NCBI GenBank assembly: GCA_030618495.1
Contig: JAUXDE010000093.1
Coordinates: 1-6,417 of the forward strand
From: Clostridia bacterium
GTDB lineage: Bacteria > UBA6262 > WVXT01 > JAUXBS01
DNA length: 6,417 nucleotides
Direction of reading: 5' to 3'
Below the pieces are notes generated by a model. It had not been told where the DNA came from, ran no database searches, and saw nothing but the letters and a program-made list of their open reading frames with translations. This document shows, one piece after another, positions 4,281 through 6,276 of the stretch. A program made the translations under genes and the position numbers. The stretch's first letter is position 1. Each line of letters starts with the position of its first letter.

Positions 4281-6080
4281 TTAAAGCAGCGTCCCGGAAG
4301 AATTTGCGCGTTTATTGGTAATTTCACTCCCCATGGTAACCGCAATTCCAAGAATAATACCGAACAATACTCCTATACTGTGTGTAAACAGTATGTCAAC
4401 AAAACTGTGGACCAGGAATGCTGTTACACCGCACAGACAGCCAAGCCCTATCACAAACCTGTAATCATTGCCTTCTTCGCTGACAGTGTTATCAACTGAC
4501 AGCTTTTTGGCTTGCAGGAGGTTTTTAATTATAAACCCGTAGTGCGCTAAAAGCAGGTACAGCAGTGCGGCCAGCCCGATTATGCCTGTTTCCACAAACT
4601 GCTGAAGGTACAGGTTGTGAAGATGAAAATAATTATAGTCTACTTTCACCGGAAGCAGTTCACCCTCGCCGGTTTGGCGGAACAGTTTAACATTCCTGAA
4701 CTGCACTACGGCCTTCTCGTTATGCGCCCAGCGCAACTTGACGTCGGAAAGTGATTCCAGTGATGTACCCGTAAACAGCGTTCCCTCAAGTTTAGTCCAG
4801 TTTCTATTATGCTTGAAAATAATTACATTTGGATAATGAGTTTGGAACACTCTCTTGCTGGTGCCTTGAAACTGAATGAGCTCAAGAAAATCATTATCAC
4901 CCGTATCTCCCTGCTCCACGCGGTATTCCAAGGAAACCCGGTAATTGGTATTGGGATTTAACTCCTCAAGATTCACTATTGTTTCACCGAACCAGCCATT
5001 AGAAATTGATGTTAATGTAACCCCGTACTTCTTATGGACATATTGATAGTTCCCGGCGCCTATTCCGAATAACGGGTATTCTTTTATTGATTTTAAAGCA
5101 GCTTTCCAGTAGGTAAACCTGACCCTGACTGAATAATTTGATAAAGCGCTGAATATTCTTTCAGTCTTGCTTAATGAGGGCAGGCCCGGCTGTTTAAAGA
5201 ATGAAGGCATGGCTGCCATAACTAAAATATAGGCTGTCAGCATTGCTATTCCAATATAAACCAGTCGTTTTCTGATGTTCGGTTTAGTCAAAATAAGCAG
5301 AACGGAAAAAGCTATAATTAAGCCGCTCCATCCTCCCCGGGAAAAGGTTGCCACCTGAGTGAGAAACAGTACAGAAAAAATAATACCGAACCAGGGTTTC
5401 TTAAGCCTTGATTTTTCATGGACTAATAAGGTAAGCGTCATTACTACTATTAGCCCAAGGTATCCTGCATAAGGGTCATAACAGCCAAATAAACTTACCA
5501 CTTCGCGAAAATCAAAACCACTGGCAAAGAACTGATATATCCCGATAAATGCGGTTACCAAACCCGTTATTATGATGGAGTATACTACGAACTTTGTTTT
5601 GGTTTTTTCGTTCAGGAAATTAACGACAAAGATGTATACAAAAAACACTTCTCCCCAGCGTACCGTTTGTTTTACGCTTGCCGACAGGTCTTTTGTAAAC
5701 AACCACGAGAGTAACAACGTCCCGAAGAAGACGCATATGCTAACAGTTAGTTTCTTTCCGGGCAATTTTATTTTCCTGCCTGAAGGCAGGAGCGCGAGCC
5801 ACGCAAGGCAACTCATAAGAATAAGAGCCTCTGTCGTATATACCGTGAATTTACCAAGGATATCCAGGCTGACCTCAAAAGGCACAGACAGGATGATTAG
5901 AAGAAGTATCATTTCCGGGTTGAATTTAAAAATCATTATCAAGGTTCCAATAACCATGACAACGGCAGTAACCCAGCCCGGCATAAATGACATGGACAAC
6001 CGCAGTATTATTCCTGCTGTAAGGTAGACTATTGCATCAAGAATAGTGTTTTTCTTAATTGCCATTTTATTGAATTCCAT
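4281..6080 (-). CDS. O-antigen ligase/polymerase family membrane protein with inserted beta-rich domain
   Basis: This is a polytopic membrane protein of the Wzy/WaaL superfamily, which polymerises or transfers undecaprenyl-linked glycans on the outer face of the inner membrane. About 12 to 14 hydrophobic segments lie at roughly 12-291 and 499-584. Family signatures are TFSRGGWSG (245-253), RFTYWKAALKSIKEYPLFG (321-339) with GIGAGN following, and HLHNLYLQQFVETGIIGL (486-503). The last two normally flank the large periplasmic loop. Here that loop is expanded by about 125 residues (roughly 355-480) of alternating polar and hydrophobic strands, including LNPNTNYRVSLEYRVE, WTKLEGTLF and VVQFRNVKLFRQ, which resembles a carbohydrate-binding jelly-roll. 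The substrate, and ligase versus polymerase, cannot be told. The first ATG (6080) has no Shine-Dalgarno sequence; Met6 (6065) has a weak GGAA about ten bases upstream and may be the true start. A repeat element ends two bases upstream of the first ATG. Confidence 0.88.
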   Translation of the reverse strand: MEFNKMAIKKNTILDAIVYLTAGIILRLSMSFMPGWVTAVVMVIGTLIMIFKFNPEMILLLIILSVPFEVSLDILGKFTVYTTEALILMSCLAWLALLPSGRKIKLPGKKLTVSICVFFGTLLLSWLFTKDLSASVKQTVRWGEVFFVYIFVVNFLNEKTKTKFVVYSIIITGLVTAFIGIYQFFASGFDFREVVSLFGCYDPYAGYLGLIVVMTLTLLVHEKSRLKKPWFGIIFSVLFLTQVATFSRGGWSGLIIAFSVLLILTKPNIRKRLVYIGIAMLTAYILVMAAMPSFFKQPGLPSLSKTERIFSALSNYSVRVRFTYWKAALKSIKEYPLFGIGAGNYQYVHKKYGVTLTSISNGWFGETIVNLEELNPNTNYRVSLEYRVEQGDTGDNDFLELIQFQGTSKRVFQTHYPNVIIFKHNRNWTKLEGTLFTGTSLESLSDVKLRWAHNEKAVVQFRNVKLFRQTGEGELLPVKVDYNYFHLHNLYLQQFVETGIIGLAALLYLLLAHYGFIIKNLLQAKKLSVDNTVSEEGNDYRFVIGLGCLCGVTAFLVHSFVDILFTHSIGVLFGIILGIAVTMGSEITNKRANSSGTLL

Positions 6081-6082
6081 AG

Positions 6083-6270
6083 TGTAGTGTTACTAACATA
6101 TCTTTACATATGCTGGAAGTATTTTGCTTCAGTGTCAAGGAACGAAGAGTGAGAATACTGTACGTATGTGAACGATGAGTGACGCCGACGATGGATAAAA
6201 GACGACAGCCCTTCGGCTTCGCTCAGGATCTATGACCCTTCATATGTAAAGCTATGTTAATAACACTACA
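6083..6270. mobile_element. 188-bp MITE-like element with 30-bp terminal inverted repeats
   Basis: The 30 bases at 6083-6112 and the reverse complement of 6241-6270 match at 28 positions, beginning TGTAGTGTTA on the outer side and ending TACATATG on the inner side; one further outer base pair (6082 with 6271) also matches. The 128-bp interior has no meaningful open frame, so the element cannot encode its own transposase. The interior contains two copies of a GAACGAAGAGTGA-like 13-mer 30 bp apart and the segment CCCTTCGGCTTCGCTCAGG (6209-6227). I see no target-site duplication immediately outside the arms. It fits a non-autonomous miniature inverted-repeat element or a related palindromic intergenic repeat. 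Its left end lies two bases before the ligase ATG. An alternative is a regulatory RNA or DNA structure that is not mobile. Confidence 0.72.
6140..6182. repeat. Short direct repeat inside the MITE-like element
   Basis: GAACGAAGAGTGA (6140-6152) recurs as GAACGATGAGTGA (6170-6182), 12 of 13 bases identical, with a 30-bp period. Both copies lie in the interior of the inverted-repeat element. They may reflect an internal duplication or a repeated protein-binding or folding unit. Two copies are too few for a CRISPR array. Confidence 0.5.
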
Positions 6271-6276
6271 CCCGTT

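Follow-up and report, generated by a model that had tools for sequence, protein, structure and literature searches.

A new MITE family with TA-adjoining ends, found so far in one uncultured bacterial genus

The window analyzed here is a 6,417-nt stretch of DNA from a Clostridia bacterium (contig C122 of a 1.69-Mb genome assembled in 179 contigs, referred to as G000), and positions 6082–6271 of it form a 190-bp element that is almost certainly a MITE. It represents a new sequence family of this well-known kind, which, as far as we have searched, is confined to one uncultured bacterial genus. The assignment follows from the combination of dispersed copies, conserved inverted ends of 31–36 nt, lack of coding capacity, insertion at TA, and occupancy that is specific to species. 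The explanation developed below, taken as a whole, is very probably correct.

The element is bounded by the arms of an inverted repeat, the left one at 6082–6112 (+ strand, CTGGAAG side, GTGTAGTGTTACTAACATATCTTTACATATG) and the right one at 6241–6271 (- strand, AAGGG side), which are each 31 nt long, complementary at 29 of 31 positions, and separated by 128 nt. This is the strongest inverted repeat in the window; when 40 first-order Markov shuffles of the window were searched for 31-nt inverted repeats within 300 nt, the best of them reached only 19–23 of 31. The initial annotation had described a 188-bp element at 6083–6270 with ends matching at 28 of 30 positions, far beyond chance. The inverted repeat, its near-perfect match, and its excess over chance all stand, while the boundaries had to be moved one base further out on each side. 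Its description of the interior as non-coding also holds, as no ORF of at least 60 aa lies inside the element. The two arm mismatches, at position 12 (C/T) and position 20 (T/G), had been read as a possible sign of age; however, position 20 differs between the arms in 8 of 14 two-ended copies, and this mismatch alone therefore does not imply age. Elsewhere in the window, past the end of a DUF4342 gene, there is a non-coding, imperfect 29-nt inverted repeat with a 1-nt loop (positions 69–127, 79%).

Copy counts were obtained from sequence searches of G000. BLAST with the element gave 69 matches, and a 23-nt end pattern allowing up to 3 mismatches gave 56 matches in G000 and 8 in its congener G001, with none for the reversed-pattern control; the family end sequence is GTGTRGTGNNNCTAACATAKCTT. 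The left block (about 135–137 bp) is present in more than 12 copies in G000. The most frequent full-length unit measures 265 bp (L099, L100, L113, L114, and L115), of which the window copy is a short form: its left block (6082–6216, + strand) matches the 265-bp copy L115 at 97% identity across 135 bp, its right 36-nt end block (6236–6271, + strand), also common to other family copies, is 94% identical, and the rest is a 19-bp module (6217–6235, + strand) that replaces ~94 bp of the full unit. The identical short form is present in L002, so the window form is a subtype or a shared derivative and not a private accident; a related module is found in L101 and L119.

Among the 60 genomes searched, clear copies are present only in G000 and the same-genus G001, and when 84,980 named genomes were scanned for the exact pattern, the end turned up in the latter alone, the MAG Clostridia bacterium CSMAG_2805. 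Plasmid and phage collections and viral contigs gave no MITE match, and a 41-bp match in G057 (E 8e-4) is weak and was treated as chance. Two G001 contigs are 99.8–99.9% identical to G000 (L103 vs. L122, and L104 vs. L119), whereas other orthologues are ~75% identical, and the coverage of these two G001 contigs is ~38 vs. 20–28 for the other MITE contigs listed, which together suggest misbinning of these two contigs.

Besides the full and short forms, there are very short derivatives (L121:5445-5556, L121:1-107, L095:1327-1374, and L096:98-134), in which one end is reduced to a few bases (e.g., ACAC|TA) or fused to the end of another family. A second inverted-repeat element, with ends GTGYCTTATTAAAYAACYTATGTAAYCATAACATG, is nested in MITE copies at L083:1016-1295 (approximate) and L098:5-60, and in L083 its two flanks read TA and AA. 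The 533-bp L083 copy was considered as an autonomous element and rejected, since its extra length is this other inverted-repeat element nested inside. A third repeat family, with the end GTRCTCTGTCTCATAAATTNCCGT, is joined to or inserted in MITE copies at GGYTAGGAGG (L004:1-110, L085:1580-1850, L090:1-110, and L098:200-275).

The distribution of copies differs between the two species. For 13 two-ended copies, the two flanks were spliced together with the element left out and used to search the congener; conversely, G000 was searched with the flanks of G001 copies. The orthologous sites of L099, L101, L115, L120, and L114 are unoccupied in the congener, and L108 is the reverse case, unoccupied in G000, so that insertions differ between the species. 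Thus, the element is neither single-copy nor present at the same locus in all relatives, and the MITE reading offered in the initial annotation is supported by its many copies, its TA-adjoining ends, and sites filled in one species and empty in the other. That annotation had also called for filled and empty sites to be aligned for the target duplication. At L099 and L120, the alignment shows 2 missing bases, in line with a 2-bp duplication, and the other loci carry other indels. These comparisons are between species rather than strains, and the unoccupied sites are ~70–76% identical to the filled loci, too low to prove the duplication to the base.

The target is most visible at the outer boundaries. 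TA directly abuts 39 of 62 distinct ends in G000 and G001 combined, against a background of 6.5% (binomial p ~5e-31), and 20 of the 23 non-TA ends are one substitution away from TA (expected share 47%, p 7e-5). Of these 39 TA dinucleotides, 23 are preceded by C and none by G, and the junction often reads CTA|G (CTA|GTGT). IS630 reportedly prefers TA within CTAG (Tenzen and Ohtsubo 1991, as cited in PMC2170065). Among the 14 two-ended copies, TA is found on both sides in 4, on one side in 9, and on neither in 1, and the window copy itself is of the one-sided kind, with TA at 6080–6081 as the presumed target dinucleotide and CC at 6272–6273. Deviations are about fourfold more frequent in flank bases than in arm bases (12/56 vs. 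an estimated 24/434, p 2e-4), in a post hoc comparison where the 24 was taken as one half of 48 differences between arms and the end search favors well-conserved arms.

Both IS630 and ISY100 insert at TA with a 2-bp duplication, and ISY100 in vitro gave normal TA duplications in 34 of 39 insertions, AA/TT in two, and TA on one side with only A on the other in three (PMC2170065), so that some flank asymmetry has precedent. The plainest account of its high frequency here would be that flanks decay while gene conversion homogenizes the copies. It is very unlikely, by comparison, that the flanking dinucleotide travels with the element (a 2-nt donor flap kept on one side) or that a degenerate palindrome, YTA|TAR, serves as the target without duplication; either, if true, would account for unequal flanks despite much better conserved inner ends.

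As to the mobilizing enzyme, DDE_3 (PF13358) had no match in G000 or in five relatives (G000–G005 searched), DDE_Tnp_1 (PF01609) had none in G000 and G001, and the IS630 NCBIfam model NF033545 gave only sub-threshold matches. The comparison with ends of complete insertion sequences, suggested in the initial annotation, accordingly led to no match: no complete insertion sequence with the MITE ends was found, and the searched assemblies contain no IS630 or DDE_Tnp_1 transposase. A gene lying between two ends (L026/L116; ORF at 1774–2853 of L026) was considered as a full insertion sequence and set aside, as it is not transposase-like and encodes a putative ordinary oxidoreductase. With no such transposase found, we conclude that the enzyme is missing from the assemblies (through assembly or binning loss) or extinct; the assemblies are fragmented, which makes its absence weak evidence.

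The best sub-threshold match to the IS630 model is an IS481-like transposase ORF at a contig edge (L137:812-1866, 328 aa, end of contig C116; NF033577 E 6e-55, below the curated cut-off). One end of this element, GTGTAACAGTTCAGGACTTTCTGG, could be defined against G001 (L143), and the other lies beyond the contig; G001 has a C-terminal fragment of the ORF and a further copy of the end. This raises the alternative that the MITE was moved by an IS481-type (rve-fold) transposase, its ends being TGT...ACA placed in CTAG, with the outer G and C as part of the target. The presence of such an ORF in G000, an end that starts GTGTAAC, and the CTA|G context of the MITE would all agree with this, as IS481 uses the target NCTAGN (PMC3053399). 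However, the resemblance of the IS481-like end to the MITE end stops at GTGTA, apart from a 12-nt internal match whose meaning is uncertain, for which reason the L137 ORF was rejected as the partner, and the IS481-like element is single-copy. Further, a 4-bp CTAG duplication fits the paired flanks poorly and holds in just one two-ended copy (L100). We therefore regard an IS481-type origin as improbable.

Given that the element is a MITE, its helper was probably of the IS630/Tc1-mariner type, a preference that comes from the TA target and the CTAG context. A DDE transposase supplied in trans would bind the inverted ends and excise the element, which would then be pasted at TA with a 2-bp duplication in the IS630/Tc1-mariner manner. 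The variable interiors may be the product of deletions within the element and of other small repeats inserting into it or recombining with it. The source element would have been lost to assembly or binning, or have died out. As no autonomous IS630 element with the MITE ends was found in G000–G005, we do not file the family as IS630-derived, only as working like one.

The arms vary strongly between copies at positions 9–11, mostly agreeing within a copy, and the real pairs matched better than all 20,000 random re-pairings of the arms. Such agreement fits subfamilies whose two ends changed together. Arms more alike within than between copies are also what selection on pairing would give, and the element as single-stranded DNA folds more strongly than its shuffles (z -5.7), so that one might see in it a selected chromosomal hairpin or regulatory repeat (REP/BIME-like or an RNA hairpin) instead of a transposon relic. 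However, a strong fold is expected from any long inverted repeat, subfamilies that have ends of their own would give the co-variation just as well, and no Rfam family matched the element. A selected hairpin is also at odds with TA at the exact outer boundary, with insertion differences between species, with nested and truncated copies, and with absence from all other genera searched, and we find it highly improbable. A chance inverted repeat or an assembly artefact can be dismissed, since the former is refuted by the shuffles and the copy number, and since the latter, despite the many copies at contig ends, where assemblies break, is contradicted by many others inside contigs with distinct flanking genes and by the occurrence of the family in a separately deposited MAG.

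The MITE family resembles several known systems. Like the repeat unit of pneumococcus (RUP), it is small, non-coding, and intergenic, with inverted ends, TA insertion, and many copies, and RUP is likewise thought to be moved in trans (PMC2229807). However, RUP is 107 bp long with 9-bp inverted ends and has a known partner with matching ends, IS630-Spn1 (PMC2229807), whereas the MITE here is 190–265 bp long with inverted ends of 31–36 nt and no partner found in the searched assemblies. The Correia/NEMIS elements of Neisseria share TA at the ends, inverted ends (24 bp in their case), and two size classes differing by an internal block (theirs 107 and 155 bp), and they show a target duplication (PMC2229807), but no sequence relation to them was found, and any duplication here is imperfect. 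ISY100, of the IS630-Tc1-mariner group, is similar in its TA target and in a minority class of insertions flanked by TA at one end and by A alone at the other (PMC2170065), but it encodes its own transposase, and none was found for the MITE.

None of the 16 copies checked interrupts an ORF of at least 100 aa; they all lie between ORFs or reach only into the last bases of one. The window copy would have landed between two divergently oriented genes, one of which, encoding a Wzy_C (O-antigen ligase domain) protein (4281–6080, - strand), adjoins the element. The ATG of its longest ORF is one base from the element, so that its 5' leader now consists of element sequence; an alternative start five codons in would give a slightly longer leader. 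A promoter and terminator scan at the locus found sites no more numerous than in shuffles. In two copies, L114 and L100, the ORF upstream of the element takes its stop codon from the TA|G junction. These findings add a MITE family to a genus that is uncultured and little studied, and they leave the general understanding of how MITEs work as it was. The copies account for part of the assembly of G000 into 179 pieces, and some of them supply leader or stop-codon sequence to the adjoining genes.
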